IMG/VR virus record: IMGVR_UViG_3300044799_000154 | Location: 57,518 to 121,517 of that record | Origin: a virus | DNA: 64,000 nt | Reading direction: 5' to 3' (one strand) | In this document: in pieces, positions 10,504-62,057 of the stretch | How the letters are laid out: every line of letters starts with the position of its first letter | Numbering within the stretch: the first letter of the stretch is position 1 | The notes under the pieces: generated by a model | What the model was told of the DNA's origin: nothing | The model's input: only the letters and a program-made list of their open reading frames with translations | The model's database searches: none | Translations under genes and position numbers: made by a program

Positions 10504-10525
10504 AAGTATATAGGTGTGAATCAAG

Positions 10526-13033: not shown

Positions 13034-13037
13034 TAAA

Positions 13038-15544: not shown

Positions 15545-15556
15545 GGAGAAAAAAGT

Positions 15557-44394: not shown

Positions 44395-45477
44395 CTACAG
44401 AGCTTTGTTAGCATCGAATTGGCAGTCATAGACGATGGCAATGCAATCAGCATTCACAACTTTCGGAGCAAACTCAAAGTAGAAGTAAAGTTCTACTGCG
44501 TCTGATCTTGGGTTGTCCCATCTCTTGAGATCTACATTCCTCTTGATTACGAGGTATGCAGCTCTTGTACTGTCAACACAGAATACTACACCAGCAGGAA
44601 TGTTTGTAGTTGCCAACAGCTTCATTGCACCAACCTTGCCAACTTCACCAGTCAACAGAGGTTCAGCAGATCCATACTGACTTGCGTCAATGAATCTAGC
44701 ATCCTTGATCAAATCAGCCATCTCTTCAGGGTTCAATACCATGAAGTTAGGTGACCATTTGTGACTTCGGATGAAAGTGCCCATAGCTGTAATGTCTTCA
44801 TACTTTAGAATCTTATCAGTTGTAGAATCAATTGCTCCTCTTGCAGTTCCAGCTACAGTATACCAGTACTTGAAGTGAAGATTATCTCCACCCAGGTTCT
44901 CGGCAATCTGTACTTTTCCAGCAAGGTAATCAACACCTTCTACTGTGACATTTGCAGCAGCATCATTCTTTGCTGTCAGCCATGTCAAAACTAATGGATG
45001 TGCTAAAGTATAAACATTGTGTGCAGCAGCACCCGCAATCACTTGAGTTACTTCAACTTTACCCAAGAATTCCCAGACTATTTCCTGGTCTTCTAGGTCA
45101 GCCAAAGCTTCACCCGCTTCTCGGATGTGGTCTCTTATCAGGTCAAACTCTGAAGCATCAAGTGCTTCTTGAGTCAACGCAGCATAAGACACAACCTTGA
45201 ATGGAGTGATTTCAATTGTGGTATATGCAGGTGATGTTCCATCGGCAAAAGCATTCAATTCAGTGCCTTCAGCCACACGAGCAGCAGACATGATTGTTCT
45301 CTTTGGAACATGGATAGATCGACCTTGCTTTCCAACAAGATCTGCATTTATCTTTACCAAAGCACGACCAAATCTACGAGCTCTTGCAGCCTCTTCTACC
45401 TCTGATATGATTATCTTTGGTAGGATTGCTGTAATGTCGCCTGTAGTCATCTTTGCTAGTTCTTCTAATGTTTTCAT
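44395..45477 (-). CDS. Major capsid protein, HK97 fold
   Basis: A 360-residue protein, the usual length for HK97-like capsids. The helix-rich N-terminus (ITAILPKIIISEVEEAARARRFGRA), the strand RSIHVPKRT, the long helix REAGEALADLEDQEI and the P-domain block KWSPNFMVLNPEEMADLIKDARF match this fold. The ATG at 45477 is chosen because gaggag lies seven bases upstream; an in-frame TTG at 45492 overlaps that site. It is the product acted on by the upstream protease. Both a promoter-like sequence and a terminator surround it, fitting high expression. Confidence 0.85.
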   Translation of the reverse strand: MKTLEELAKMTTGDITAILPKIIISEVEEAARARRFGRALVKINADLVGKQGRSIHVPKRTIMSAARVAEGTELNAFADGTSPAYTTIEITPFKVVSYAALTQEALDASEFDLIRDHIREAGEALADLEDQEIVWEFLGKVEVTQVIAGAAAHNVYTLAHPLVLTWLTAKNDAAANVTVEGVDYLAGKVQIAENLGGDNLHFKYWYTVAGTARGAIDSTTDKILKYEDITAMGTFIRSHKWSPNFMVLNPEEMADLIKDARFIDASQYGSAEPLLTGEVGKVGAMKLLATTNIPAGVVFCVDSTRAAYLVIKRNVDLKRWDNPRSDAVELYFYFEFAPKVVNADCIAIVYDCQFDANKAL

Positions 45478-45520
45478 TTTTATTCTCCTCAATTTAATTT
45501 GAGTTCACTATAATAAAATA

Positions 45521-45549: not shown

Positions 45550-45912
45550 TCACTCAGAGTCAGATTGATAGCTTCCAGGTTCCATTCTGGGACCTTTCTT
45601 AATGAGGTCATGTTCAATAGCTATTTTAACAGCTTCTCCAACAGATATCTTGCCTTTAAGATCTTCTGGATTGCTATAGCCAACTCGACTCTTGGGTTTG
45701 GGTCTTTCCTCGGTAGTTGCAGTCAACTGCTCGGGATTCTTACCCATCCTCAATACATTTTCAGAGAGAGTTGCATATCTCTCTTTCCATGAATTGAGTT
45801 CAGATCTGATAGATCCGAGTTCTATTTCTAGGGCAATCTTTTGATCTGTGAGTTCATCTAATTTCTTTGATAGAGCAATTATTCTTTTATCTGACTCAGA
45901 TTGTTCTGTCAT
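45550..45912 (-). CDS. Coiled-coil protein, possible scaffold or head protein
   Basis: A 120-residue protein. The N-terminal half is a predicted coiled coil (DKRIIALSKKLDELTDQKIALEIELG and SELNSWKERYATLSENVL), and the C-terminus is Pro/Gly-rich with ISVGEAVKIAIEHDLI. It overlaps the end of the capsid protease by four bases (ATGA) and precedes the capsid gene, a typical scaffold position. It could work with, or instead of, the Pro/Glu/Lys-rich tail of the protease. Confidence 0.6.
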   Translation of the reverse strand: MTEQSESDKRIIALSKKLDELTDQKIALEIELGSIRSELNSWKERYATLSENVLRMGKNPEQLTATTEERPKPKSRVGYSNPEDLKGKISVGEAVKIAIEHDLIKKGPRMEPGSYQSDSE

Positions 45913-46343
45913 TGTTTTGACCTCTTGCTATCCAACCATTTCTCTAAGATAACCCGCTTGGCTTCTGGATGTTCTTTCAGAGCTTGTAGCAGTTGTTCCT
46001 CGGTCATAGGAACCTCTTTTGGAGCTTCTATGATCTTAGGCTCTTCAACCTTTGGTGCTTCAGCCTTAGGAGCTTCAACCTTAGGTTCCTCTTTTGGTAG
46101 TTCTCTAATACTTGGAACTATCACTATTGGAATCTCAAATGGTTTTTGCTCTACCTTAGGTTCCTCTTTAGGAGCTTCAACCTTAGGTACTTCTACCTTT
46201 GGCTCTTCCTTTGGAGCTTCGACCTTTGGTGCTTCAACAACCTTAGGTGCCTCTTCTTTAGGAGCTTCAACTTTTGGAGCTTCTACTTTGGGCTCTTCTT
46301 TCTTCACCTCAGCAACCTTGGGTTCTTCTTTCTTTTCCGACAT
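45909..46343 (-). CDS. Internal start in the capsid protease: candidate scaffold protein
   Basis: In the 3' part of the protease gene an ATG at 46343 (residue 580) follows a strong Shine-Dalgarno (aaggagggaaaggaaat). Translation from it gives a 144-residue, Lys/Glu/Pro/Val/Ala-rich protein with about a dozen EEPKVEAP-like repeats and a helical C-terminus. Nested in-frame scaffold genes inside the protease gene are known from lambda (C/Nu3). The internal site is seen here; the use of it is inference. Confidence 0.55.
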   Translation of the reverse strand: MSEKKEEPKVAEVKKEEPKVEAPKVEAPKEEAPKVVEAPKVEAPKEEPKVEVPKVEAPKEEPKVEQKPFEIPIVIVPSIRELPKEEPKVEAPKAEAPKVEEPKIIEAPKEVPMTEEQLLQALKEHPEAKRVILEKWLDSKRSKQ

Positions 46344-48080
46344 TATTTCCTTTCCCTCCTTCAAATTTATACCATCTTTAGGTGGCATACCATATTCAGG
46401 TGACTGATCAGGTTTGGGTTTGTATTGACCATATTTTTCAACATGAGTGTCCATCCAATGTTTGTTGAAGATCACTTCATCAGTAAACTTCTCTCCACAT
46501 ACTGGACAAACTATTTGATCAGCAGCCTTCTCTTCTTTACCACCAGTCTTGACAAATTTCTTAGCCTCTGCTTGAGTATCAAAGACTTTAACTATTTTCC
46601 ACAAGCCTTCTTCAGGAACTTCGAAAACAGTGTATTTCTCAGTACCCTTATTAAAAACAACCTTTAGTACACCTTTCTTCAGGTCATCAGATTGCTTCTC
46701 ATATTTCGGGTAATAAGGATAGTATGGGTAATAAGGATAATATTGTTCACCATAGTATGGATAATACCCATAACCTTGCTTTTCAGCAGGAGTGTACTTT
46801 CCATATTTCTCCATGTGATCCTTACTCCAATGCTTTATGAAGTCTTTGAAGTTTGAGAACTTAGCACCACATGCTTTACACACGATACTATCTTCCATCT
46901 CTTCAAAAGGATCCTCATCAGATTTCTTCTCGGGCTTGGGATAAGCTTTGTATTTCTTATACTTATATGGATAATATCCATATGGAGAATATGCATACTT
47001 GTATCCTTTGAGTTTCTTAGTGCTCTCAGGAAGTTTACACATTCTTCTAAGATCATCCAATTCAGCCTCTGATTGTAATGGAACCTCTTCAAGATATTCT
47101 CCTTCTTCAACTAGAGCTACAACAAATGGAATGTCAGACTGAGCTACTGGTTTCTTATATTTCTTGTATTTGTAAGGATAGTAACCAGGGTAATTACCAT
47201 AACCATAATGTGGGTAATAACCATAGCCATAATATGGATAACCATCTAGTTTAGGATAACCATAATAGTATCCATAGACTTTCTTATTCTTTCTAAGTTC
47301 TTCCAATTGCTCTTCAGAACTTAATTCCATGAGCTCTAGATCTTCATTGTCTTCTACCCAAGCAAGGATAATTGGTCCTTCCTCTTCAGAGATTTCTAGG
47401 TTAGGAGCAGAGTTTTCTTCTTTTTCCATTTTATTTTCGCCTACTATACTTTCTTTCTTTTCTACTTTTAAATCTTTCTCCATTCTTGATAATTTCTCGC
47501 AATGGAATATAAAACAGCGATCACAGGCAGGATTTGATACTAATGAGAGTTCAGCAAACTTGAAATCAAGACCCATTTTGATTCCCTCTTGACCAATTGG
47601 AATCTTATCCATCCAAGTAGACATAGATACAGCTTTGAACCTACCTGCATTAACATAATCAATAGCTTTTTGATCTGTTAATCTAGCCTTAAATTTCAAA
47701 GCTTTAAGAAGTTCATCCCATAGAGCTTCTATGACTTCTCCAACAGTTCGATCTCCAAATTCTTTATCTTGACCATGTTCGATCTTTAAAGGTTTACCAA
47801 TTAGTTGATCAGCAGCTTTCTTGATCTCTTCTGAAGAATAAACAACATTCTTCCAGATACCTTCAGCTAAAGCAACACCAGTAACTAAAAGACCTTTATC
47901 TTCAAGAACAGTAAAAAAATCAAAAGCTAGTTCTTCTTGGACAGATTCAGGCTTAACAGTGTTCTTAAGATTCTCTATCTCAAGTTTCCTAGCCTGGAGA
48001 TCTTGTTCTAATTGTTCAATCTCAGCTTCCAAGATTTCCTGGATGCCTGATTGATCTTCGATAGTTTCCATTTTCTTCAC
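45909..48080 (-). CDS. Prohead protease fused to Tyr-rich repeats, two zinc fingers and a scaffold-like tail
   Basis: A 723-residue multidomain protein. A coiled coil (1-45) leads to an S78-like prohead protease (50-195) with His102 in KIEHGQD and Ser152 in AVSMSTW, the expected dyad. Then follow two similar acidic-plus-YGYYPYKYKKYK units (235-310 and 317-380), C2H2 fingers CKACG...HWSKDH (Cys401, Cys404, His417, His422) and CPVCG...HWMDTH (Cys525, Cys528, His541, His546), another Tyr/Pro-rich segment at 435-460, and a Lys/Glu/Pro repeat tail from 580. The protease is expected to trim the capsid and this tail. Compared with usual proteases (200-350 residues), the insertions are very large. 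It overlaps the next gene by four bases. Confidence 0.8.
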   Translation of the reverse strand: MKKMETIEDQSGIQEILEAEIEQLEQDLQARKLEIENLKNTVKPESVQEELAFDFFTVLEDKGLLVTGVALAEGIWKNVVYSSEEIKKAADQLIGKPLKIEHGQDKEFGDRTVGEVIEALWDELLKALKFKARLTDQKAIDYVNAGRFKAVSMSTWMDKIPIGQEGIKMGLDFKFAELSLVSNPACDRCFIFHCEKLSRMEKDLKVEKKESIVGENKMEKEENSAPNLEISEEEGPIILAWVEDNEDLELMELSSEEQLEELRKNKKVYGYYYGYPKLDGYPYYGYGYYPHYGYGNYPGYYPYKYKKYKKPVAQSDIPFVVALVEEGEYLEEVPLQSEAELDDLRRMCKLPESTKKLKGYKYAYSPYGYYPYKYKKYKAYPKPEKKSDEDPFEEMEDSIVCKACGAKFSNFKDFIKHWSKDHMEKYGKYTPAEKQGYGYYPYYGEQYYPYYPYYPYYPKYEKQSDDLKKGVLKVVFNKGTEKYTVFEVPEEGLWKIVKVFDTQAEAKKFVKTGGKEEKAADQIVCPVCGEKFTDEVIFNKHWMDTHVEKYGQYKPKPDQSPEYGMPPKDGINLKEGKEIMSEKKEEPKVAEVKKEEPKVEAPKVEAPKEEAPKVVEAPKVEAPKEEPKVEVPKVEAPKEEPKVEQKPFEIPIVIVPSIRELPKEEPKVEAPKAEAPKVEEPKIIEAPKEVPMTEEQLLQALKEHPEAKRVILEKWLDSKRSKQ

Positions 48081-48386: not shown

Positions 48387-50225
48387 TTAACTAAGTTGGA
48401 TTAGATTTCCATTTCCCAATCTCAAGTATAGATTTCCATCTTTTGTTATTATAAGATCTTTAGATAGATATACAAGAGGAACATCTCCAGAACTTTGGAA
48501 TCCAAGAAAATGAGTTCTATAGATCTCATCTGCTGAAGAAGCAGTTGCTTTGTATATTGCTCTTAAAGTTCCTCCAGGGGAAGCAACAGTTACAGTAGTA
48601 GGATTAGCAGTTGGATCTAAGACACTAATTCCATCAGTAACTACCCAATGATCGAACTCATAGCCTACGACTGCATTGTACAGAGCAGAATAGCTTCCTA
48701 TTGTTTTTCCAACATCATTTGGAAGAGTATATGTTATTCCATCAAATGTTATAGTTCCAAGATTAGAAGTAGAACTGTCATCTTGCAAAGATTCCAAATG
48801 AACAGGAGGATCTGCTGGCATGAACCAAAGATCTCCAAGAGCATGGTGAGGCATAGTAGTAAAAATACCATTCCTAAAGAGTACTTTTGGATATAAATCT
48901 GATCCCATTTCCTTTAAAGTATGTGTCATTCTATTTCCAAGATTATCATTGGTTAGATATTCTTCAACTGACCAAGTAGCTCCACCATCTGTAGATTTCT
49001 TCATCACTATATCTAGGTTAGCATGAGGTACATTTGTAGGATAAGCTACAAAAAGATTGTTTGCATCTTTGTATGCAAGAGAATATTCCCAAAGATATCC
49101 ATTTTGAGTTCCAGTAGCAATATAAACTTGAGCATTCCATGCTGTAGCTGTAATTGTCTTAGGATTAGTTGTTTTCCTAAATACAACATTGGCTCCATTT
49201 AAATCATAGATCATGCAGATTCTATCATCTGGTAGAACTCTCAATTGGCATTGACCAGAACCTGCTGAAGAAACTGCTTGCCAAGCTGCTCCTGTGGAGT
49301 TAGCATTTGCTGAACCACTTCCAGTACCACTAGTAATTGTCATAACTGAATTTGTTAGAATTGTAGAAATAGCGTCTATTACCCAAGTGCGAGTAGTGTT
49401 GTTGTAACTCAATAGAACACCAATTTCAGTACCATCATCTTTAACTTGTTTTCCAACATCTCCAGGAACACAGCCAACATACCCAGATGATTTCAATATT
49501 AATGTTTGTGGAGTATATCCCCAACTTGGTCCAGCACGATAACCTATCTTGATAGCATAATTTTGTCGTGGACCAAAAGCTGCAAAGGAAGAATCTCCAA
49601 CTCCTACATATAAATTATTGGCTGAATCTTTGTCAATACTTGGAGCCATCAACAAATTGAACATACCAATAGATGGAAGAGTTGTTTTAGTCCAAGTAGC
49701 ACCACCATTAATTGATCTAGCCCATATAGGAGGACCATTTGCTCCTTTCATATAAGTAATATGAATATAATTGTTAGAATCAACTACAATATCAGGAACA
49801 TCAATATAATTGGAATCAGAATCTACAGTTATTTCAGCTCCCAAGTTCCAAATCCAGAGTGTAGGATTAGTTTTGTCTACTGTTCCTTTTCTAAAGTATA
49901 TAACATCTAAACTGGGACTTGGAGGAGTCTCAACTCTTGAAAAGTAAAGATTTCCAGTCGCATCTGAGCATATTGTAGGAAAATCTATATCTCCTTGACC
50001 TGCTGGATACTCATACAAAATAACATTAGTCCAAGTACTTCCACCATCTCGACTATATGACCACATTACCCAAGATTTATCTGAACTTGGAAAGAAAGGA
50101 GGACCATAGCAACTAACAGCATGAATAGTGCCATCAGGTGTCCTACACATTTTCTTCTGAGTTACATAATTACAAATTGTACTAATTGTTCCGTCACCAT
50201 ATATTTTTACTTTAGGTAATACCAT
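48387..50225 (-). CDS. Sialidase-like (BNR) propeller protein with InlB-like C-terminus
   Basis: A 612-residue protein from ATG 50225, which has aggag nine bases upstream; the open frame extends to 50285 inside the preceding gene. Asp boxes SRDGGSTW, SINGGATW and STDGGATW mark a six-bladed propeller of the sialidase type. The region GYEFDHWVVTDGISVLDP near the C-terminus resembles InlB-type repeats, as in the protein at 32693. The last 30 residues hold KDGNLYLRLGNGNLIQL, a beta-hairpin ending. It lies in the head module, away from the tail adhesins, and may be a head decoration or a fibre encoded out of place. Confidence 0.7.
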   Translation of the reverse strand: MVLPKVKIYGDGTISTICNYVTQKKMCRTPDGTIHAVSCYGPPFFPSSDKSWVMWSYSRDGGSTWTNVILYEYPAGQGDIDFPTICSDATGNLYFSRVETPPSPSLDVIYFRKGTVDKTNPTLWIWNLGAEITVDSDSNYIDVPDIVVDSNNYIHITYMKGANGPPIWARSINGGATWTKTTLPSIGMFNLLMAPSIDKDSANNLYVGVGDSSFAAFGPRQNYAIKIGYRAGPSWGYTPQTLILKSSGYVGCVPGDVGKQVKDDGTEIGVLLSYNNTTRTWVIDAISTILTNSVMTITSGTGSGSANANSTGAAWQAVSSAGSGQCQLRVLPDDRICMIYDLNGANVVFRKTTNPKTITATAWNAQVYIATGTQNGYLWEYSLAYKDANNLFVAYPTNVPHANLDIVMKKSTDGGATWSVEEYLTNDNLGNRMTHTLKEMGSDLYPKVLFRNGIFTTMPHHALGDLWFMPADPPVHLESLQDDSSTSNLGTITFDGITYTLPNDVGKTIGSYSALYNAVVGYEFDHWVVTDGISVLDPTANPTTVTVASPGGTLRAIYKATASSADEIYRTHFLGFQSSGDVPLVYLSKDLIITKDGNLYLRLGNGNLIQLS

Positions 50226-50248
50226 TTTAACAATCTCCTTTTCTTGTA

Positions 50249-52447
50249 TTAATCTTTTCCTTTCTTTATCATTTCTTGAGTCCATGTATGAAGGTTATTA
50301 TCTTTGATCCATTTGGTAGCAGTCTCTATTGGAGCATCACCTTTAAACTTAACTTGGGATACTCTTGCCCAATGGAAAGTACCTGGCTTTGGATATAGAC
50401 ATACAAGGATATCTTCCACATAATCTGGAATGCTAAGATCTGGGAAGTAAGTTTTATAATCAGACTCACATCTAGTGAATGTCCTCATGTCATAAAGATG
50501 AAGCCAATAGTAATCCCATCCTTTCTTCTGTCCTTGAATGAATGGATCATAATAGTCTCCTTTGACTGGGTCTCCACTTAAAGTCTGAGCTTCAGGTAAT
50601 TTAGATTTTATAAAGAACCAATCTCCTTCAGGGGATTTTTTCAGGACCCAGTATCCTTTTATTTTGTCTCCATAGAGTTTCATTGACATGAATCCACCAG
50701 TTTGCTCAATGATATCTATCTTACCATGATCTAAGACATCAACAAAAGTTTCCAAAGATCCTACCTTTCTAGGAAGCTTTTGTCCTTCGGTCATAAACCA
50801 ATCTTTGGGATTATTACATGTCTTTAGAAGTCCTGGTATCGGGTCTCCAGTATTAGCTTCAAGAGGATTCTTCCATAGGTTCCATTCTACTAGAACTTTG
50901 GGATTCTCAGTTATCTTCACTCTAATATCCCAATGTTGTTTATTATCCCAATAATGTCGATGAAGTACAAACTCTCCAGATGCTAGAGAACTTTGTTCTT
51001 TAGCTTTCCAAGAATACATGTTTGCTCCTTTCTCTTCTTGGATTAAATCATAGTTTCCTTTCATGATCTTACCATGAAGCTTCAAATGATAGATCTTTCT
51101 ATTCTGATCATCAGTTTCTAGTTCAACAGTAGCAGAACCAGAATCAAAGTTCCTCATTGTAGCAATCAATGTCTTCGTTGGATTATACATTTCTCCTGGA
51201 TGTATCTTACCTTCCCATGTCATCCATTTCTTATTCACTTTGCCTTCATACATTGCTCCTAGTTCATTAACTCTAGCTGGATCACCATCCAGATACCAGG
51301 AGTCTACTCCAGTAGTTTGAAGACGGAAAAAGAACTCTACATGAGGTACTGCTCTAACAACTACTTGTCCCATATAAGTATTAACTTGAAGATTGAATTT
51401 AGCACCAGCTAATGGATTTACAGGTTCTTTCATTTCAAAATCTTCACATGCTGGTTCTTCAATAGATAGATCTTTGATACAATGCATACAATGAATACAT
51501 TCTTCACATGTAAAATCATCTAAGATCTCACCTGTTTTTCTAGCAATCACAGCACAATAAGCGGATGCTCTCTTTTCATCCCAACCTTTCTTTTCCATGA
51601 TCTGTTTTACACAATCTTTGAAATTCTTATAACCAGCAAATGGAAGTCCTTCTAATTCTCTAAGACTTTCTTTAGTTAGACTCTTACCTTCCATGTATGC
51701 TTGCCATTTATCCCAGAGTTCTCCAGATCTCTGATCAGGTGGAATTGGAATAACACCTTTTGGAGGTTTCCAACCTTTCTTTATTCCTCGTTGTAAAGCA
51801 TAAGCTATTTGGTTGCCAGGAATCATGCATTTCCACATGTATTCTGTTTGACCCTTAATTGGTTTCTTAGTGACTGGATCTATCTTAGGGACTTGAACTC
51901 CTCTGAAGACAACACGAGCCCATTTACCTTTTGGAAGGAAGTTACCTACGTCAGTCTTCAGGAAGTATTCATGGAAATAAGATTTCTGAGTTCCTTCCCA
52001 GAACACGCCATGCTCAATAATGTCTACCACTCCAGTCTCTTCTTTAGTAGCTCCTACCTCTCCAGGCTTAACTACACCATTAACTTTCAACCATTCTTTT
52101 GGCTGTCTAGCTTTTGTTTCTGCTCTCAATCCTTTATTCTTCTTTGTGAAATCAAAAGCCCAATCCAATTTCTTTATCTGAGCTTCAGCTTCAGGCATAG
52201 TTGTTACCTCAGGAGTTCCAGAAGGATTATCTAAGATCGTCCATCCAACAAGGTGATTATTCATTTCCATTCTGAAATCTTTGTGAACAGAAGCTCCTCT
52301 CCAATGATGCTGCATGACAAATCTTCGTTTACATCCTGAAGGAGGATATTCCATGTATTGAGAGACACCTGTAACTTGTAATTCTTCCTGGAATATTCCT
52401 AGTTCTTCTAAGAACTTAGGATCAATCATTTCACGAGTTATTTTCAT
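50249..52447 (-). CDS. Tandem LigD-type 3'-phosphoesterase protein
   Basis: A 732-residue protein with two copies of a LigD phosphoesterase-like domain. Copy 1 (about 40-205) has RFVMQHHWRGASVHKDFRME and VVDIIEHGVFWEG; copy 2 (about 490-650) has EFVLHRHYWDNKQHWDIRV and VDVLDHGKIDIIEQ with an LYGDKIKGYWVLK strand. In LigD the conserved His-rich motif (FxxQxH...HxDFR) removes 3' ribonucleotides or phosphates before ligation. The first copy retains HxDFR; the second is degenerate (HWDIR). Between them lies GYKNFKDCVKQIMEKKGWDEKRAS, a segment common in phage structural proteins, and a Cys cluster (CEECIHCMHC). It is two bases from the ligase gene, forming a probable repair pair. Confidence 0.75.
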   Translation of the reverse strand: MKITREMIDPKFLEELGIFQEELQVTGVSQYMEYPPSGCKRRFVMQHHWRGASVHKDFRMEMNNHLVGWTILDNPSGTPEVTTMPEAEAQIKKLDWAFDFTKKNKGLRAETKARQPKEWLKVNGVVKPGEVGATKEETGVVDIIEHGVFWEGTQKSYFHEYFLKTDVGNFLPKGKWARVVFRGVQVPKIDPVTKKPIKGQTEYMWKCMIPGNQIAYALQRGIKKGWKPPKGVIPIPPDQRSGELWDKWQAYMEGKSLTKESLRELEGLPFAGYKNFKDCVKQIMEKKGWDEKRASAYCAVIARKTGEILDDFTCEECIHCMHCIKDLSIEEPACEDFEMKEPVNPLAGAKFNLQVNTYMGQVVVRAVPHVEFFFRLQTTGVDSWYLDGDPARVNELGAMYEGKVNKKWMTWEGKIHPGEMYNPTKTLIATMRNFDSGSATVELETDDQNRKIYHLKLHGKIMKGNYDLIQEEKGANMYSWKAKEQSSLASGEFVLHRHYWDNKQHWDIRVKITENPKVLVEWNLWKNPLEANTGDPIPGLLKTCNNPKDWFMTEGQKLPRKVGSLETFVDVLDHGKIDIIEQTGGFMSMKLYGDKIKGYWVLKKSPEGDWFFIKSKLPEAQTLSGDPVKGDYYDPFIQGQKKGWDYYWLHLYDMRTFTRCESDYKTYFPDLSIPDYVEDILVCLYPKPGTFHWARVSQVKFKGDAPIETATKWIKDNNLHTWTQEMIKKGKD

Positions 52448-52449
52448 AA

Positions 52450-55398
52450 TTATTCACCTATCTTCTTACAGGGACATTCTTCATCCCTTTGTGTCTCTTC
52501 ATCAGTTTCTGGATCAACCAAGTAGTCGTAATAGTAAGGCTTGACATATCTACATTTCCAGTAATAAGCTAATGAACAAGCAACTGGGAATTTAAGATAC
52601 ATTCTCTTAGATAAATCATCCATGGTTCTAGCAAATCTAGGTTTCATAGGGCATACTTTTAGATCCTCATAAAATGGACATGTTGGAAGTTGGACTACTT
52701 CTTCAGCTAGAGTACTCAATGGAGCAGTTCCTGCTACTATTAATTTCTTAACTACATCCAACCCATCAGGTTCACTCTTGTTTGGATTTCTAGCTTTGAC
52801 AGTTGGAAACATCCATGTCCAATAAATTCTTCCTTTCTCTTCGAATTGAGCAACTCTAATTGGTCTAATTGCTAGGATATCTCCCTTTCCACATTTGACA
52901 GCAGAAGCATAACTTCTTCCAATAAGATAATAACATTTTCCTTTCCATTCTTTGAAGCCATCTTCTTTGATCTTATCTTTCATTCCACAAGGAACAGAGA
53001 TAACACAATCATACATATATTGCCCTGGAATAATCTGACCTGTTTTTGACTCTTTCTTAGGAATAACTTCCCAGACCATTACATCAATTTCTTTGACATT
53101 CTTTATCTTAGCCCAATCAGTAGTTCTACCAGTCAACTTGTAGATAGAATCTGCTTGCTTGAGCATTGCTCCTTCAGAACCTCTGATCCTTCTGACCTTA
53201 GCTAGAGTTCTATCAAACTCTCTCTTATCATGAACCTCATAACCTGGAACTGCTTTGAAATGATATGTTCCTGATGGAATTATTTTATCAACAGCAGTTA
53301 ATCTCTCAGTATATCCTTTCTGAGTCATATCTTGCCCATCATACATCATACAATCATGAACATGGAAAACAATATCTTCATCATCAAGCTTCATTTTTGT
53401 AGAAGTAATCCAAGGAATCATTTCTTCTCTTGGACGAGGTTGACAGAAAGCTTCTTTATCTTTAGTATCTTTACCTTGACAATTATACCAGACCATCTCA
53501 GTATCAATAATGAAATTATCAGCTTTGAAATGCTTAACCAATTCTTCTACTGATTTCTTAAAGACATCTGCTCGATCTCTCTGTCTATCTTCTGTAAAGA
53601 ACCAGATCTTGTCTCCCTTTCTATGGATTTGAATTCTCATACCATCAAATTTCTTCTGCATCACTATACCTTTCTCAATTCTAGATGCAGCCCAATTATT
53701 CCACAATGGAACTGGATCAAAGAATTCAAATTTGTCAAATCCTGTACCTGATTTCAAAGATCTAATAGGTTTTCCCAAAGCTATATCGGAAAGATATTCC
53801 CAAGGAGAATGTTTACCCCATTCATTTGGAGGCACTCTAACATAAGCTAATCTGTAGATAGGCATTGAATATCCTACCTGTGGACCATGAGGATCAAAGA
53901 CCCAGTGAATCCTATTTGCAACTTCAGGATCTCTTGCTCGAATTGCAGTAGTTAAAGCGGTCATCAATCTCTTATCTGGAAATGATTGTTTTACCAATAC
54001 ATCTATGTCATGACCTGGTTGAGAAAGATCTTTATTAACAGTGCTTCCACAAACATGAATATGAGCTGGAGGGTCCATAAGAATGATCTGCTCTGGAAAT
54101 GCACTTAGAATTCTAAGAACTGGAAGATCTTGGAAATTAGCAGGAATGTTTTCATCAACTTTATCTTTAGAAGCAAATCCTCTTGGTGTTGGATATTCTA
54201 CTACATCTAAAGCTGTAGCATCTGTCAATGGATCTTCAATGGTATGACGAATATTTCTATGCACCATTTCTGACCAAACAAAGATATGAGCATTGCTTAA
54301 AGGCTCAGTAATCTTACTCTGTTCTCGATAGATAGCATGAAGTCGTTTATCCAAAGATACAAGATCTTTGTCACTAAGTTTTCTAGAATAAATATCATCT
54401 ATTGCTTCAAGATCTTTGAACTCTATCTTTGAGACATCTATCAATAGTTCTTCCTCAATTGAAGAAAGAGTTTCAAAGAATTCTTCAAAAGTAGCTTCAC
54501 CTTCAACATTACTCAATGAACTCGATTCTTTCAAAGGAGTATAATTCCAGCCCATCTTCTTGAAAGCTTCAAGAATGTTGTTATCAAGTCCTTTTACTAT
54601 TTTTTTCTGCTCTTCTAGAGTATAATCTTTGAATTGTGGACTCATCATTCTTTTACCAGATTGGAGAAGATTCCACCAAGCATGAACTATTCTATGATCA
54701 TCCAAGACTACTTTCCTTCCACGAGGAGTCTTTATCAATTCCATTGCATCATAAGTCTTCCAATCTCTAATCAAGAATTCCTCTATTCTATCCAAGAAGT
54801 CTAAATAAGGATGTGTCATATTTCTATCTGAAAATTCTTTAGTTATTAGAGCATGAAGTTCTGTATCTCTGACTAAATGAGAATGAGCATGAAGTCTTAA
54901 AATTGCTCCCATTGGAAGTTCCTTCATTTTCTCAAATTTGATATTCTTAGCATCTATCCAATTCTGTGTTCCCTTTGGAAGAGTAACTACAGTGGGAGGT
55001 TTAAATCGTTCTACCATCTTGACAGGATAAAAATATAGTGGACCTTTACACCAGGCTTTGTAAACTTTGCACCATTTCTCTCTTGTCTTCTCTGAGATTC
55101 TGTGCTTGGGCTCTAATTGATGAAAATCTTTTATTGAGATTTCTATAGGTTCTCCTATACGCATAGTTCCATAACACAATCCATGTCCCAAGAGATAAAC
55201 AGGTTCATCTGGATTTACATCATATTTCTTTGACTTACAAAAAGCGGTCTTAAATCCTGTAGATATCCAGTGAGCATGAGGCTCTATCAAATACAAACCA
55301 GTCCTCGGAGCAGTCTCTACTTTCTTGATAAAAATCTTTGGAACAATTGGTTGAATATCAACAGTTGTAATAGCTGTATTATTTTCTTTCTCTGGCAT
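52450..55398 (-). CDS. ATP-dependent DNA ligase with N-terminal nucleotidyltransferase domain
   Basis: A 982-residue protein. Residues 1-240 (HAHWISTGFKTAF, LRLHAHSHLVRDTELH) are a domain I do not recognise. About 430-510 has the Pol-beta nucleotidyltransferase signature: HVCGSTVNKDLSQPGHDIDV with Asp464 and Asp466, and Asp502 downstream. The ligase begins near 560: MQKKFDGMRIQIHR (Lys583 adenylation, motif I), FIIDTEMVW (III), EGAMLKQADSIYK (IV) and TTDWAKIKNV (V). The C-terminus has four more Cys and CPCKK. A ligase fused to a nucleotidyltransferase, near a phosphoesterase, recalls the LigD set used in end joining, but here a Pol-beta-type fold replaces the primase-type one. Its place in the late operon is unusual. 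Confidence 0.85.
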   Translation of the reverse strand: MPEKENNTAITTVDIQPIVPKIFIKKVETAPRTGLYLIEPHAHWISTGFKTAFCKSKKYDVNPDEPVYLLGHGLCYGTMRIGEPIEISIKDFHQLEPKHRISEKTREKWCKVYKAWCKGPLYFYPVKMVERFKPPTVVTLPKGTQNWIDAKNIKFEKMKELPMGAILRLHAHSHLVRDTELHALITKEFSDRNMTHPYLDFLDRIEEFLIRDWKTYDAMELIKTPRGRKVVLDDHRIVHAWWNLLQSGKRMMSPQFKDYTLEEQKKIVKGLDNNILEAFKKMGWNYTPLKESSSLSNVEGEATFEEFFETLSSIEEELLIDVSKIEFKDLEAIDDIYSRKLSDKDLVSLDKRLHAIYREQSKITEPLSNAHIFVWSEMVHRNIRHTIEDPLTDATALDVVEYPTPRGFASKDKVDENIPANFQDLPVLRILSAFPEQIILMDPPAHIHVCGSTVNKDLSQPGHDIDVLVKQSFPDKRLMTALTTAIRARDPEVANRIHWVFDPHGPQVGYSMPIYRLAYVRVPPNEWGKHSPWEYLSDIALGKPIRSLKSGTGFDKFEFFDPVPLWNNWAASRIEKGIVMQKKFDGMRIQIHRKGDKIWFFTEDRQRDRADVFKKSVEELVKHFKADNFIIDTEMVWYNCQGKDTKDKEAFCQPRPREEMIPWITSTKMKLDDEDIVFHVHDCMMYDGQDMTQKGYTERLTAVDKIIPSGTYHFKAVPGYEVHDKREFDRTLAKVRRIRGSEGAMLKQADSIYKLTGRTTDWAKIKNVKEIDVMVWEVIPKKESKTGQIIPGQYMYDCVISVPCGMKDKIKEDGFKEWKGKCYYLIGRSYASAVKCGKGDILAIRPIRVAQFEEKGRIYWTWMFPTVKARNPNKSEPDGLDVVKKLIVAGTAPLSTLAEEVVQLPTCPFYEDLKVCPMKPRFARTMDDLSKRMYLKFPVACSLAYYWKCRYVKPYYYDYLVDPETDEETQRDEECPCKKIGE

Positions 55399-55409
55399 TA
55401 AAGTTCACT

Positions 55410-55790
55410 TCACGAAATATACTGTTTGCCACCGTTCTTGCTTGGTTGCTTATCAGCTTCTTTCTCTTTCTCTTTCTTTCTAGAAGCTATTTCTGCTTCC
55501 TTATGTTCTTTCAATTTCTTGGTCCATTTAACATCAAATTCTAGAAATTCAACAGACATCTTTCTAATTTCTTCAGCAATCTCAGTTAATTCTTTCTCAT
55601 CAAAAAGCTTCATGATAGATGGATGTTGTAACCAAGAACTCCATCCCATTGTTGATGCATTAACAGCAGTAATAGCTTCCTCAATCAAGGAAACTAAATC
55701 TAGACGATCTCCTAGCTTCTTATCTTTCAAATGCTTAATGATAACTTCTGATTTCTTAATATAATCATCTACTGGAGATTCTTCTGACAT
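55410..55790 (-). CDS. DUF2153-like archaeal protein
   Basis: A 126-residue helical protein. SLIEEAITAVNASTMGWSSW and the following FDEKELTEIAEEIRKMSVEFLEFDVKWT segment resemble the archaeal DUF2153 family, judged from memory of its length and the conserved 'W-x-x-W ... ELxxIxxxxR ... FDV' pattern. The C-terminus is a lysine-rich tail. ATG 55790 follows aggtgtgat; an upstream GTG at 55796 is possible. It lies just upstream of the ligase and may be a partner. Confidence 0.6.
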   Translation of the reverse strand: MSEESPVDDYIKKSEVIIKHLKDKKLGDRLDLVSLIEEAITAVNASTMGWSSWLQHPSIMKLFDEKELTEIAEEIRKMSVEFLEFDVKWTKKLKEHKEAEIASRKKEKEKEADKQPSKNGGKQYIS

Positions 55791-55834
55791 TATCACACCT
55801 ACTTATATTAGATCATATACTCCTTAAAAAAGAT

Positions 55835-56266
55835 TTAGGAAAGGAGGACCTTAAGATAATCATTGCTATCTCTTCCAAGATACTCTATAGCTTTTTCTAA
55901 GATTAGAATTGAATCTCCAGATAGACCTATCATGAAATTACATTTATTGCAAAGAAGACCTCTAATTTTCTTAGTTTCATGGTTATGGTCTATAGATGGT
56001 TCTTTAAAAGGTTTAAATTTCTCATTGCAAATAGCACATCTATTATCTTGAAGTTCAAGCATAGAATCATAATCTTCCTTAGTAATATTATAAGGCTTCA
56101 ATCTTTGAACATTCTTCCAATATTTTCTTTGATATTCATTTATTGCGTCTTTTCTTTCAGCTCTCTTTTTCATAATTTCTTCCTTGTGTTCCTTGAAGCG
56201 TATTTTAGCTTGAAGAAGCTTATGTTCTCTGTGGTCTTGATAATATTCTGATTCACTTCTAACCAT
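55835..56266 (-). CDS. Endonuclease VII-type HNH nuclease
   Basis: A 143-residue protein with the endonuclease VII pattern: RCAICNEKFKPF, SIDHNHETKKIRGLLCNKCNFMIG, where DHNH and the two CxxC knuckles form the zinc-supported active site. The N-terminal 60 residues are a basic coiled coil. It can act as a resolvase or a homing endonuclease. It stands alone between the LonB and DUF2153-like genes, with flanking gaps, which suggests an inserted mobile gene. Confidence 0.85.
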   Translation of the reverse strand: MVRSESEYYQDHREHKLLQAKIRFKEHKEEIMKKRAERKDAINEYQRKYWKNVQRLKPYNITKEDYDSMLELQDNRCAICNEKFKPFKEPSIDHNHETKKIRGLLCNKCNFMIGLSGDSILILEKAIEYLGRDSNDYLKVLLS

Positions 56267-56283: not shown

Positions 56284-58458
56284 TTATTGAAGAAGCACTC
56301 GAAGATAATCATCCAAAGTCTTCCCTGGTCTCACGACCACTTTAAAGTCTGTGGGCTCTATTGAAAATTGATAGTTTTTATCAGGAATCACTACTTCCTT
56401 GAAGTTCCAACTTTCAGCAGCTTTGATTTTCTCATATAATCCACCAACAGCAGTGATCTCTATCTCATTATCTGAAGATATATTTATCTCTCCAGTCACA
56501 GCAACATCTTGTCTAATTGGTTTCTTCTCTAACAGAGAACACAAAGCAAGAGTCATTGTAACACCAGCAGAGGGACCATCTACTGCATAAGACTGAGAAA
56601 AGTCTATGTGAGTACAATAATCTTTAGATACATCTGCACCATATTTCTTCAGGATTACAGATCTTACCTTAGATATTGACCCAGGCATGTATAAAGCATC
56701 TTTTGGAACACCAGTTACTTTGAAATATCCGCAGTCTTTCTTAGCTTTTATCATTTGTGCTTTTATTCTTAAGACTGATCCGACAGATTCTCCTGAGAGT
56801 GGATCGGAAGATACTGCCAAACCATAGATTACTCCTAATTTCTTTCCAGATGGTTTAATCTCCAAGAACTTGTTTTCTTCCTGGATATAGTTCTCCAAGA
56901 TTTGTTTCTGAATGGTCTTACAATGTTCCTCGATAGCTTCCCTTACACGCTTACCAGATACTTCTGTCTCTCCTGCATTCATAGCCAAGACAGATGCTGT
57001 TTTTAGGATTGATATCAAAGGTCTGAACTTAGCTGTTAAAGTGTCTCTTTTATCAGACTTTCTTCTAGCTTCTTCAATCACTTCAATGCAAGCATCTCTT
57101 GTGAAGGGCATTAGATTGAATCTATTAATTTCCTGAGCAATGAATTGGACATACTTTCTTCTGCTTTCATCCGTATTTGGAAAATCATTGTTCATTCTAA
57201 CTACTTTTCCATATCCATAGATACGATCCATCAAAGCAGGATGTATCTGACAAATAGAATCAAAGTTTCCTGCTCCTACAAGAAAAGTAACACATGGAAT
57301 TGGTTCAGTAGATACAGCCATTGCAGAAGTATCTCCACCATGAAGTTGAGATCTTAGAGCAATTGGTAGTTGACCATCTTCTAAAACTGATAACAAAGTT
57401 ATTGCCTCGGCTGGCATCAAGTTCTTCAATTCATCTATGTATAGAATTCCCAGATTAGCTCTATGAACATCTCCAGCAGATACTCTTTGATGTTCTGGAG
57501 TTCCAAGTCCACCTGTCTGATATGGATCCCAAGCTATTGATCCAAAGAGTTGTGAAGAACCATGTCCAGTTGCATCAATGAACTGAGCTATTTGTTGAGA
57601 GTTATCAATCAACATCTTAGGAGCATCAGTATTCTCTGAACCACCGATTCCTTTCATTCCACCCTGGGATCCCAAAAACTTAAATAGATAACTTATGAAG
57701 ATACTTGAGAATAACAAAGATCCTCCAGCCATTAACAAGAAAGCAGTATCTGGTAATGCAGCCATAAAGTACTGGAAGAAGTTTCCATCGTATAAAATTT
57801 GAAGAGGAACACCATATCCTGTCATTTGATTGGTAGCCCAAGGCATGGTAATAGTATACAAAGCACAGAAGAGTAATAGGAGTCCCAATCCAGCACACAA
57901 CCATTTAACTGAACTAATTCCCAAGCTTTTCTTCCAAGCTTGTCTCTCTACTTTCTGTCTCTCTTTTATAACAAAATCTTTTCCTTTTGGTGATGGATGT
58001 ATTGAGATTCTAGGTTCACTAGGAATTGTCTTATTTTTCCAAGATAGAACATCATACATCTTTACATTGTTTTCTCTATAAAGGTCAGTAAGTTTCTCAG
58101 CAAGAGCTCTACCTATCAGAGACTTTCCTGTTCCTGGATCACCTAGCAAGAATAAATAAGGACCAGGGGAAAGTTTCTTCTTAACTGTTGGCTTAACATT
58201 CTCTGGATTCTCCCAATCCTTCCACCAATGATCTTTATCTAAGTTCTTGAGTTTGTGTACCCATTCATCAAGACATAAGTAACATTCTTTCATTGCCTGG
58301 TCTTGACCTATGACCCAGTCTAGAAGTTTAGTAGAAAGAGGGAATCCTTCAGTAGAATGAAAATCTTTCCAATCCCATTCTACTTCTGGACAATTAGCCC
58401 ACTTTATCTTTGACTTTCCTTTGCCGAAGTATTTTTCTTTTCTTTCTTGTTCAGACAT
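56284..58458 (-). CDS. lonB: Archaeal LonB-type membrane protease
   Basis: A 724-residue ATP-dependent protease. Walker A GDPGTGKS is at residues 106-113, and after two membrane segments (LGLLLLFCALYTIT near 200 and SLLFSSIFISYLFKFLG near 250) comes Walker B ILYIDELKNL. Membrane segments between Walker A and B are the archaeal LonB layout. The C-terminal protease domain has VDGPSAGVTM (catalytic Ser) and GGLYEKIKAAES (catalytic Lys). It overlaps the portal gene by 55 bases with a gaggaagga ribosome site, so it is translated in the late operon. It may turn over a host protein or process head proteins at the membrane. Confidence 0.92.
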   Translation of the reverse strand: MSEQERKEKYFGKGKSKIKWANCPEVEWDWKDFHSTEGFPLSTKLLDWVIGQDQAMKECYLCLDEWVHKLKNLDKDHWWKDWENPENVKPTVKKKLSPGPYLFLLGDPGTGKSLIGRALAEKLTDLYRENNVKMYDVLSWKNKTIPSEPRISIHPSPKGKDFVIKERQKVERQAWKKSLGISSVKWLCAGLGLLLLFCALYTITMPWATNQMTGYGVPLQILYDGNFFQYFMAALPDTAFLLMAGGSLLFSSIFISYLFKFLGSQGGMKGIGGSENTDAPKMLIDNSQQIAQFIDATGHGSSQLFGSIAWDPYQTGGLGTPEHQRVSAGDVHRANLGILYIDELKNLMPAEAITLLSVLEDGQLPIALRSQLHGGDTSAMAVSTEPIPCVTFLVGAGNFDSICQIHPALMDRIYGYGKVVRMNNDFPNTDESRRKYVQFIAQEINRFNLMPFTRDACIEVIEEARRKSDKRDTLTAKFRPLISILKTASVLAMNAGETEVSGKRVREAIEEHCKTIQKQILENYIQEENKFLEIKPSGKKLGVIYGLAVSSDPLSGESVGSVLRIKAQMIKAKKDCGYFKVTGVPKDALYMPGSISKVRSVILKKYGADVSKDYCTHIDFSQSYAVDGPSAGVTMTLALCSLLEKKPIRQDVAVTGEINISSDNEIEITAVGGLYEKIKAAESWNFKEVVIPDKNYQFSIEPTDFKVVVRPGKTLDDYLRVLLQ

Positions 58459-59858
58459 TCTAATCCTTCCTCTTTACTTAATCCCTCTTTTGTTTTGGGA
58501 CAATTCTGACAATACTTGAATAGTTCACTCAAAGGTATGTTCTTTTCTTTTCTTATTGGACACTCAATATCTTCTTGATAAACACAATTGATGGCTTGTA
58601 CTTTGTCCTTACTCTCATCTTCTAAGAGTGGCAAACCAAGTTCTCCTCTCAATTTGTTTTCCAAAGACCTATCCACATGGAGAACTCCTTTCTCAGTTAG
58701 CATTGAGATTGATCTCATTCTAAGCATCTGAGTCTCAGGAGAAGATTCTCCAAACTCTACCTCTGGAATGCTTTGTAGTTTTTTCTGGATTCTCACTTCG
58801 GCTAGGAGTTGTTCATCCAGTTCAGCTTTAATTTCCTCTGTGTACATCTTAGCTGCTTTTTCAAAATCAATATTAGAAAATGTTGCACCACCTTTGCTCT
58901 CTGTGGATCCCGATGGTACTATGAATCCAACTGGATTATCCAATGCTCTAGCTATTTCTCCTGCTAAGAAAGCCCATAGATCAACTATAGGTGCCAAAGG
59001 AGTCTTGCTTTCTAATCTTCCTGGTTTTATCCAGACAGGAAGTATAAGTTCCTCAGCACTCTCTAAGTTCTTGAGAATTTTCTTTGCTTCAGCGATCAAA
59101 GGTGCATCAATAGGATGATTTAAATCACCAATGTTGAAGTATATAATTGGAAATCCATGTCTATACAGAGCTTCTCCATAAGCCTCTTCCAAGTTCATTC
59201 TAATCCAGGATGCCTTGAACGCAGGTTCTAATGGAGATATTCCTAGGCATTCAACTCCCAAAGTAAAGAAGTTCATTAGAACTACATCTTTCATTGGAAG
59301 ATCAATGCTATCACTATTTACTGTTTGTACCAATCCAACAGGGTTCAAATTGTCATCTAACAATATTTTTCCATCTCTATCTTTCTGCCAATCCACAGTC
59401 TTTGGATCTACAATGACAAGCTGAACTATGTTACCCTTTGAATCTCGGACCTTTTCAATAACAGAATATCCATAAATGATAATATCCAAAATAGCTTCCC
59501 AAAGTACTTTCTTCAAGTTCACAGTTCGAGCCCAAGCTTCCATAGCAGTACGATCTTGCTCAACTCCACCTGAGAAGTAAACTCTTGGAGAAGCTATAGC
59601 TCTCCTAAGACGGTTTACACCAGCGAAGATGAGTGGATCCATTCTATAAAGAAGCTCTGCTTTCTTTTGAACTTGAGTTTCTTTCTTTAATCTCTCAGTA
59701 TCTCCCTTACTCTTCCTAGTTCTAGTAATTGCCACTAGGTCTGACAATGACAATTCAACTTTTTCAGGTGGGATGTCACTTGGTCTGCTTCGTCTCAAAG
59801 CATCATAAAGTTTTCTTACTCTAGATCTTGAATCATCTTTTGGTGCTTCATTAGTCAT
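58404..59858 (-). CDS. Portal protein
   Basis: A 484-residue portal. PLIFAGVNRLRRAIASPRVYF, VLWEAILDIIIYGYSVIEKV, VDPKTVDWQKDRDGKI and DVVLMNFFTLG are characteristic of the portal family, as is the helix-rich LAGEIARALDNPVGFIVP segment. The C-terminus adds a Cys4 module, C-x7-C-P-x15-C-x2-C-P (from INCVYQ to QNCPKT), with the same spacing as the 66-residue protein at 1090. Late gene order (portal, then protease and capsid) fits. It overlaps the downstream LonB start by 55 bases. Confidence 0.9.
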   Translation of the reverse strand: MTNEAPKDDSRSRVRKLYDALRRSRPSDIPPEKVELSLSDLVAITRTRKSKGDTERLKKETQVQKKAELLYRMDPLIFAGVNRLRRAIASPRVYFSGGVEQDRTAMEAWARTVNLKKVLWEAILDIIIYGYSVIEKVRDSKGNIVQLVIVDPKTVDWQKDRDGKILLDDNLNPVGLVQTVNSDSIDLPMKDVVLMNFFTLGVECLGISPLEPAFKASWIRMNLEEAYGEALYRHGFPIIYFNIGDLNHPIDAPLIAEAKKILKNLESAEELILPVWIKPGRLESKTPLAPIVDLWAFLAGEIARALDNPVGFIVPSGSTESKGGATFSNIDFEKAAKMYTEEIKAELDEQLLAEVRIQKKLQSIPEVEFGESSPETQMLRMRSISMLTEKGVLHVDRSLENKLRGELGLPLLEDESKDKVQAINCVYQEDIECPIRKEKNIPLSELFKYCQNCPKTKEGLSKEEGLECLNKKEKKNTSAKESQR

Positions 59859-60275: not shown

Positions 60276-60452
60276 GAGGGAAAATATCTAAATAAGTATT
60301 AAAGTGTTTCATTGTTTCAGGTTCGGCAATATAACCATAGGGACCCAAGTTTCGGATCGCCCTTTCCCTACCTACGGGTGTACCTGGATATTCTTCCCTG
60401 GATATAGGAAAGTATAAGAAAGAGGAGACACTAAAGATAGATGAGGAATAAG

Positions 60453-62057
60453 ATGCCAAGAGTACCTCAAGTGGAAATAGCAGAAGCTCAATGGACTAGA
60501 TGGACCCACCTGAACTTCTTTTTTGAAGATCTTACTAGAACTAACGTCTTTCCAAAGCAGAAACAATTCTTTGACTTTGTAGAAGACATTGATAATGAAG
60601 ATCATATCTGTTTGTGTGCTGGAAGAGGTTGTGGTAAAACATGGTCTCTTGCAGTTGTAGCCTTATGGTGTGCTTTCGTCCTAGCTCATGTTCAAAATGA
60701 ACCAATAGCAGTAGCTGTATTAGCGGGCTCAAAAGATGAATCTCAAAGATTATTTACTTACATACGGAGGATTCTAAAAGGTCACAAGGAACTTGATCAG
60801 TATATATCTGAGAACTTAAAAGGTGGTCTAAGATTCACCAAAGATTATATTGAGTTTAAAGATGGATCAACAATAGAAGCTCTTGCTTGTTCTATGACTG
60901 GAGTATGTGGTCCTCGTGCCAATCTTCTGATTATAGATGAAGCTGGTCTAGAAGAGTTCAAGGAAGATGTGAAAAATGAATCCTTTGAAATTATCACTGG
61001 TCAGAAATGGGGAAGAATTATTATGGCTTCAACTCCATATTACTATAGATCTCCTTTCGTCAATATCTATCTAGCTAACCAAGGTTGGAGAAAAGTCAAT
61101 TGGTCTCAAGAAGATTGTCCATGGATCAAGAAAACTGAGATAGAAAGAAAGAAAAAAGATTATACTGAAGTTGAGTTCAAAATTAGAATTCAAGGAATAC
61201 CAACTCCTCAAGAAGGAAAGATGTTTGAACCAGCAAAACTTAGAACTGTACTTAAAGATCCAACTGAGATACATTATTCAGATTATTCAAGAATCATTGC
61301 TGGTCTAGATTTTGGACAAAATATTTCACAGACTGCTCTTGTCATTATAGATATAAATCCAGTGGATAAGAAGGTCCGTGTTGTAAACTCCTGGTTATTT
61401 TCCACTCCAGACCATTCAGAAATTATTCCATCAATAGTTCAACTATTGACTCAGAATCAGGTTACAAAACTAGTTATGGATATTCAGCCTCCTAGTGCTT
61501 GTGCAATGATGAAGAAAGCTTTACTTCATATTAATGTTGAAGTTAGAGAACAGTCTTTTACTCATGGACGAGGAGATGCAATGTATCATAATCTGAAGAG
61601 ATTAATAGAGAAAGACTTGATTGAAATTCCACATGTCTATACTGGTCAGATGAATACATTAGCTGAACAACTTAGAGAAATGCAGTGGGAGAAAGATCCC
61701 AAAGTAAGAACTGACTTGGTAGATGCACTAGCTCTTGCTTGCTCTGAAGAAGGTGGATATGAAGTCTTTCGTGAAGAAGAGACTAAAAATACAATGAAAG
61801 ATCAGATGAAAGCCTGGACAGATGCAATGAAAACTTCTAAAGATATCAAGGTTGTCCCAGATGAATATACTCAGCCAGAAGTAGAGGAAGAACCATTTGA
61901 TTATCCAAAGGAATTACAAGGAAATCCAGAGGATAAGATTTTCTGGGAAGATCCTAACTTTGGAGATATGAGAATAATGTCTAAGGCTGAAGCACGAGCA
62001 ATCTATAAGAAAGGGACAAAACATAAGCTTGCTGGTCCAAGAGGTGAACGCATGTGA
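60453..62057 (+). CDS. terL: Large terminase subunit
   Basis: A 534-residue DNA packaging motor. Walker A CAGRGCGKTW covers residues 55-64 (Lys62), Walker B LLIIDEAGL has Asp162 and Glu163, and the nuclease domain has AGLDFGQ (first acid), LVMDIQPPSACAM and DLVDALALAC (last acid). ATG 60453 has gagga six bases upstream; an ATG at 60441 is less well placed. It lies alone on the + strand, opposite to the portal, with a GTGA overlap to a small partner gene. Cutting and packaging mode cannot be told from the sequence. Confidence 0.93.
   Translation: MPRVPQVEIAEAQWTRWTHLNFFFEDLTRTNVFPKQKQFFDFVEDIDNEDHICLCAGRGCGKTWSLAVVALWCAFVLAHVQNEPIAVAVLAGSKDESQRLFTYIRRILKGHKELDQYISENLKGGLRFTKDYIEFKDGSTIEALACSMTGVCGPRANLLIIDEAGLEEFKEDVKNESFEIITGQKWGRIIMASTPYYYRSPFVNIYLANQGWRKVNWSQEDCPWIKKTEIERKKKDYTEVEFKIRIQGIPTPQEGKMFEPAKLRTVLKDPTEIHYSDYSRIIAGLDFGQNISQTALVIIDINPVDKKVRVVNSWLFSTPDHSEIIPSIVQLLTQNQVTKLVMDIQPPSACAMMKKALLHINVEVREQSFTHGRGDAMYHNLKRLIEKDLIEIPHVYTGQMNTLAEQLREMQWEKDPKVRTDLVDALALACSEEGGYEVFREEETKNTMKDQMKAWTDAMKTSKDIKVVPDEYTQPEVEEEPFDYPKELQGNPEDKIFWEDPNFGDMRIMSKAEARAIYKKGTKHKLAGPRGERM

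Follow-up and report, generated by a model that had tools for sequence, protein, structure and literature searches.

A LigD-like cassette of nucleotidyltransferase, ligase and phosphoesterase domains in the head gene module of tailed viruses, with a predicted role in DNA end healing and sealing

Why would a virus encode a DNA ligase together with end-processing domains among its head genes, far from its DNA polymerase? The question is raised by two adjacent genes in a stretch of 64,000 nucleotides (the window), which lies in a viral record of 121,517 bases (IMGVR_UViG_3300044799_000154). Based on the ORF list, Pfam, and AlphaFold/Foldseek, gene A (52450-55398, minus strand; 982 aa) is predicted to begin with an ASCH domain and a helical region, followed by a nucleotidyltransferase (NTase) of the Pol-beta type and an ATP-dependent DNA ligase, and gene B is predicted to encode (50249-52447, minus strand; 732 aa) three domains of the LigD phosphoesterase (PE) type and a C-terminal region. 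An earlier note on this DNA had described the two genes as an adjacent pair, two bases apart, in the late structural block and not beside PolB; both parts of this description hold. The ORFs are separated by a 2-base gap on the minus strand; upstream are the genes for a LonB-like protease (56284-58458, minus strand; Pfam Lon_C 6e-21) and the portal protein (58404-59858, minus strand; Pfam Portal_Mu 2.4e-9, PHROG portal), and downstream those for a probable head-maturation protease/scaffold protein (45909-48080, minus strand) and the major capsid protein (44395-45492, minus strand; Pfam Phage_capsid 2.8e-6, PHROG major head protein 4e-14). The large terminase gene (60441-62057, plus strand; Pfam Terminase_6N 3.5e-6) is encoded on the opposite strand, and the PolB gene (2059-4845, plus strand) is far from the cassette. 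The protease/scaffold assignment of gene 45909-48080 is a probable one, based on its position and on iterative profiles that place it in the same set as the S78/XkdF proteases of the relatives; Pfam did not recognise this gene, and matches to XkdF/S78 were not significant by hhalign with shallow alignments.

The immediate neighborhood of the cassette includes a DUF2153 gene (55410-55796, minus strand; Pfam) directly upstream of gene A, which also adjoins the cassette in 6 other lineages, and a gene for a BNR-type protein in the same minus-strand block. An endonuclease VII gene (55835-56266), two genes upstream of the cassette in this block, was considered as a conserved partner and rejected; it is absent from the nearest relative (L001) and from every other cassette locus compared, and it resembles a mobile insertion. 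Large BNR-repeat/laminin-G-like genes in the structural region (23974-26634, 33420-36773, 48387-50285) are candidates for receptor-binding or spike proteins, and glycosyltransferase and sugar-nucleotide genes, for example a GDP-mannose dehydratase (10526-11545), occupy positions 7330-17441 downstream of PolB.

The ligase is the most clearly recognizable component of gene A, all of whose domains share its strand. Residues 575-766 match the Pfam family DNA_ligase_A_M (E 4e-27) within a predicted core of nucleotidyltransferase and OB region (residues ~575-860; 52819-53676); the catalytic Lys583, already proposed in the earlier note, is a lysine in 45 of 45 relatives in the non-redundant alignment, and the motif residues E634, E742/G743/K747 and K764 are almost invariant in the same set. 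As in LigD, gene A thus contains by its sequence an ATP-dependent DNA ligase domain with its catalytic lysine. An RNA ligase reading was set aside, as weak matches to such models occur in two relatives alone (L014 and L045) and DNA ligase models score far better. The N-terminal region, which had carried no name, was included in an AlphaFold model of residues 1-575 (mean pLDDT 75.6; the alignments for the structure models left out L004, a named GenBank sequence). Its first domain (residues ~33-150; 54949-55302) has in this model an ASCH, or PUA-like, fold: Foldseek retrieves the ASCH proteins 2dp9 (E 7e-5), Zymomonas ASCH (ZmASCH) and E. coli YqfB, and one relative (L016) has a Pfam ASCH match (E 0.0038). 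The helical region that follows (residues ~151-410; 54169-54948) contains a conserved HxFVWSEM motif; a reading as a glycosylase resembling T4 DenV is tentative, with a single weak Pfam Pyr_excise match among the relatives (L014, 8e-4) and with the catalytic residues of DenV, compared by eye, not retained.

Between the helical region and the ligase lies a predicted minimal NTase (residues ~425-525; 53824-54126), for which the earlier note had named Asp464, Asp466 and Asp502. In the AlphaFold model, residues 427-515 are arranged in the order strand-helix-strand-helix-strand-strand, the topology of Pol-beta-type NTases, in which G451 follows strand 1, the DxD motif (464/466) falls on strand 2 and D502 comes behind strand 3; sequence and model together provide the G-[GS] turn, the DxD, the third acidic residue and the beta-alpha-beta core of the Pol-beta superfamily. 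Conservation among the relatives is high (G451 in 48/48, D464 in 49/49 and D466 in 48/49), and 40 of 48 relatives have D or E at position 502. Nearly all top PDB matches of a profile of 41 NTase segments are TdT, Pol beta and Pol mu, with a best E-value of just 0.03; three members match Pfam NTP_transf_2 weakly, and Foldseek of the model of residues 1-575 returned no NTase above noise. Since the assignment draws on the motif, the predicted topology and weak profile matches to TdT and Pol beta, a Pol-beta-type NTase in gene A is likely, and less firmly shown than the other domains. It amounts to a bare palm of ~100 residues, and protein or RNA could be its substrate.

Gene B matches Pfam LigD_N in two stretches (E 2.9e-9), and the top six PDB matches of its AlphaFold model (pLDDT 74.6) are all LigD PE structures, including the solved structures 3p43 and 3p4h (TM 0.79 and 0.83 on target, E ~3e-6). 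Structure prediction therefore upholds the LigD-like PE fold that had been claimed for two copies; the number has to be corrected, since the alignments reveal a third PE-like unit, and the one in the middle of the three has no metal ligands. On the minus strand, the units are PE1 (residues ~31-189; 51881-52357), with conserved Q46, H48, H55, D57 and R59; PE2 (residues ~350-486; 50990-51400), which has lost the metal ligands and whose role is probably structural; and PE3 (residues ~487-618; 50594-50989), with H498, H505, D507 and R509 aligned to the archaeal PE 3p4h. A short FAGYKxFxDCV...AYC motif (51524-51634), seen in the alignment of some relatives only, lies between PE1 and PE2, and the C-terminal region (50252-50593) is conserved in 14 lineages. 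In three relatives (L001, L008 and L010), PE1 has a common insert of ~40 residues (CxxEICxEW...) at the same site, which is not intein-like and is absent from the window copy.

In the PE domain of Pseudomonas aeruginosa LigD, His42, His48 and Asp50 bind manganese while Arg52, His84 and Tyr88 bind phosphate, and His84 and Tyr88 are essential (PMC8656161). PE1 retains the equivalents of the three manganese ligands and of Arg52; H48, H55 and D57 occur in 50 of 50 relatives and R59 is almost invariant, so that the predicted fold and manganese ligands of gene B are those of LigD. The anion-site pair His84 and Tyr88 is not retained in the sequences: PE1 has Q/E at the His84 position in 44 of 51 relatives and W at the Tyr88 position in 47 of 49, with equivalence assigned by eye, and the alignment of PE3 to 3p4h has N in place of H and W in place of Y at these sites. 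Because of these replacements, PE activity may be altered. Considering the retained manganese ligands and arginine, the changed His84 and Tyr88 positions and other residues that are conserved instead (K112, K155 and E160 of PE1, in the non-redundant set), gene B belongs to a divergent PE family that is probably active.

Searching with the ligase alone recovered 3 viral contigs, and a four-sequence alignment 26; with a PE alignment, 98 viral contigs were found and 80 kept. After domains had been placed on all ORFs of these relatives by HMM scan, clustering at 70% identity resulted in 52 lineages. The pair or its fused form thus recurs in dozens of viral contigs, and the cassette in ~52 non-redundant viral lineages, nearly all uncultivated. 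NTase, ligase and PE occur together in 46 of these 52, and several of the six incomplete lineages are cut contigs; most loci were recovered through PE patterns alone, and for these the search did not favour contigs that also have an NTase and a ligase. That the three activities form a unit, as the earlier note had it, is supported by this co-occurrence, often within one polypeptide; its description of LigD activities with a Pol-beta-type enzyme, split over two proteins, stands for the predicted activities, but the split form is the minor one (ligase and PE form one polypeptide in 29 lineages and separate genes in 19), and the ASCH domain has to be added. The domain set also stays together when shuffled, in the orders NTase-PE-PE-ligase (L058/L078, L063, L091) or ligase-NTase-PE-PE (L057 and its kin). 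Distances between lineages are correlated for ligase and NTase (r 0.67) and for ligase and PE (r 0.53), values reached in 0 of 2000 permutations. In comparison with L001, whose ligase is 89% identical to that of the window, the ligase has a dN/dS of 0.14 and the PE gene one of 0.06, indicating strong purifying selection on both coding sequences. Inteins tend to sit in active enzymes; here, inteins or intein-like inserts are found directly before ligase motif I (L010), directly before motif V (L042, L047, L056) and within the NTase (L002), and these sites point to working enzymes.

Additional Pfam domains on the 49 cassette proteins analysed are UDG, PNK3P, metallo-beta-lactamase, Nudix, D12 methylase and Pyr_excise. 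In one contig (L021, 1-4215), an adenine methyltransferase-like segment is fused in front of the cassette, and an XkdF protease lies behind it. Structural or fibre-like genes are found between the ligase and PE genes in L001 (12214-14167) and L042 (4348-7665), and between two ligase halves in L022 (11727-13839).

Among ~85,000 prokaryote genomes, 13 matching contigs were found, all of them MAG contigs; in most of them the PE gene has a gene for a head protease, portal or capsid protein as a neighbour, so the family appears to be viral and not cellular. The MAG titles name archaea (Archaeoglobales, Thermoprotei, Methanosarcinales, Geothermarchaeota) and also bacteria (Planctomycetota, Omnitrophota, Thermotoga), with the caveat that binning of viral contigs is unreliable; confinement to archaeal viruses is not borne out. 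Three Planctomycetota MAG contigs (L107, L108, L112) contain PE genes, in two cases beside a head protease, but neither a ligase nor an NTase was found in the stretch examined; L076 also shows PE without a recognised ligase. Among 50,697 phage records, the whole cassette was found in ANMV-1 only.

The cassette belongs to the head module. The usual gene order is portal, cassette, head-maturation protease and capsid protein; the commonest PHROG classes among 116 neighbouring ORFs are major head, portal and terminase proteins, and portal and major capsid protein genes were located in 21 and 18 of the 52 loci, respectively. Protease-type domains were assigned in 44 of 52 lineages, usually in the next gene or fused, and fusion to the cassette in 17, by profiles that started from the window and from relatives recognised by Pfam. 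As the iteration of these profiles drew on a small set, they could be too inclusive at some loci. For this reason, reliance is placed on the calls of Pfam and PHROGs: by Pfam alone, a protease is fused in 10 of 49 cassette proteins (XkdF in nine, S78 in one), with E-values down to 1e-32 and examples in L021 (E 2.9e-28) and L063 (E 2.6e-30), and several next genes are independently called head maturation protease by PHROGs. An ASCH domain is fused to the portal protein in six contigs (L017, L018, L019, L022, L057, L113). In ANMV-1, a MuF-like gene, identified by eye, adjoins the cassette in place of a recognised protease.

Among known systems, LigD, the ligase of bacterial and archaeal non-homologous end joining, resembles the cassette in uniting an enzyme that adds nucleotides with a 3'-phosphoesterase and an ATP-dependent ligase, in a domain order that varies. 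In contrast to LigD, the cassette has a Pol-beta-type NTase in place of the AEP primase-polymerase, two or three copies of a PE whose anion-site residues differ, and an added ASCH domain, and it is known from viral head modules only, without Ku. Pfam matches to an AEP primase-type polymerase were found neither in the window proteins nor among the families of 49 relatives; Ku was found in 0 of 15 records by a search that detects the Bacillus subtilis control, although these records may be fragments and host Ku is possible. Lacking the AEP polymerase, Ku and the original PE site, the cassette is LigD-like in its activities but is not LigD.

A true homolog exists in ANMV-1, where AJP62006.1 (KP703175), an 866-aa NTase-ligase-PE-PE protein, is encoded directly downstream of a portal-like gene; unlike the window proteins it is one polypeptide, and no ASCH domain or helical region was recognised in it. 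It is annotated in GenBank just as "ATP-dependent DNA ligase", and the main text of the ANMV-1 paper does not mention the ligase (PMC4372165). The cassette had been put forward as a candidate for an undescribed system; no description was found in the literature searched, which did not extend to subscription journals and preprints, but this member was already deposited under its partial name. Virion polyvalent proteins (Iyer et al. 2017; PMC5512222) are an established precedent for virion packaging: large multidomain head-module proteins with Pol-beta NTases, which are predicted to modify proteins, and with C-terminal assemblin-like peptidases for processing. Cassette proteins resemble them in being multidomain, encoded in the head module and fused to or beside a predicted maturation peptidase; they differ in their predicted DNA-end repair functions. 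The main text of that paper names neither a LigD nor an ASCH domain, and the few ligase mentions listed from it concern RNA ligases (PMC5512222). The RlaP NTases of phages likewise stand beside ATP-dependent ligases, but these partners are RNA ligases (PMC7824862), whereas the cassette combines a DNA-type ligase with PE domains and linkage to the head protease.

The domains, conserved active sites, co-occurrence, head-gene syntax, and protease and portal fusions computed here indicate that genes A and B divide between them a multidomain protein that is widespread in viruses and has predicted end-healing and sealing activity. Enzymatic activity, packaging, injection and action on the incoming genome are what we infer, and the favoured reading, to which we give about an even chance, is a virion-packaged, protease-processed machine that heals and seals DNA ends of the viral genome at entry. 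The cassette protein would be made with the head proteins and would probably enter the prohead with portal and maturation protease, which would cut it free for delivery with the genome; such incorporation fits the head syntax and protease fusions, following the polyvalent-protein precedent (PMC5512222), although position in the head module alone is no proof of packaging. Once delivered, the PE domains would turn 3' ends blocked by a 3'-phosphate or 3'-ribonucleotide into 3'-OH ends, the NTase would add or fill in nucleotides and the ligase would seal, while the ASCH domain and helical region would probably bind DNA or recognise modified nucleotides. Nicks and ends would thus be repaired, and the genome perhaps circularised, before viral gene expression. 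Of this scheme, the predicted enzymology is well supported. The three predicted activities, like the fusions to repair-type domains, are in keeping with healing and sealing of DNA ends, and repair or circularisation of injected DNA is a plausible role.

The head-gene position and the portal and protease neighborhood would also suit a cassette that works at the portal, ahead of packaging or in its course, and rids replicated DNA of nicks, gaps and blocked ends, in the infected cell only and without delivery to the next host. Endonuclease VII is a type known from T4 packaging, and its gene in the window, in the same block, speaks for this possibility; its absence from the other loci speaks against it, and the fusions to maturation protease argue for prohead entry, which leaves packaging-coupled repair the second choice and rather unlikely. 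The protein could also be a polyvalent virion protein that uses its NTase, ASCH and PE domains on RNA or proteins of host or phage, in counter-defence or tRNA repair, and whose ligase seals RNA. The protein-modifying role predicted for polyvalent NTases (PMC5512222), the pairing of RlaP with RNA ligases (PMC7824862), the weak RNA_ligase matches in two relatives, and the ac4C amidohydrolase YqfB among ASCH proteins are consistent with such a conflict role; yet profile scores place the ligase, with its OB region, among DNA ligases, and the LigD-type PE together with fused UDG, Pyr_excise and PNK3P domains points to DNA, so that this explanation appears improbable.

Lower in probability is an ordinary replication ligase that came to lie among late genes by chance. 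Of 14 searched records with a ligase, 11 have the cassette ligase as the sole one found; the other three contain a second, separate ligase, and in these a plain role in replication is less likely. The cassette ligase is also constantly found with PE, NTase and head protease and, in the window, far from PolB, so that this account is quite doubtful. Finally, the folds could have been co-opted without catalysis, as scaffold or internal head proteins, in keeping with the lost metal ligands of PE2 and with the four contigs that show PE without a recognised ligase; the almost invariant active sites of ligase, NTase and PE1 and the inteins at ligase active-site motifs render this the least probable of the explanations, and a very unlikely one.

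Repair at entry accordingly ranks above these alternatives. The broader proposition, that a widespread class of tailed viruses of archaea and bacteria carries a complete, Ku-free, capsid-borne end-joining system, released by the prohead protease, mending and joining the genome on arrival and not described before, is advanced tentatively, at somewhat less than an even chance. To our knowledge, packaged viral DNA is not repaired inside the particle, and it may arrive nicked or with damaged ends. A cassette tied to portal and maturation protease in ~52 lineages would suggest that many tailed viruses bring repair enzymes along with their genome. The cassette offers new multi-activity ligases for biochemistry; if the proposition is true, the principle of LigD – to clean, fill and seal in one protein – would also include a viral form that does without Ku and uses another polymerase fold.
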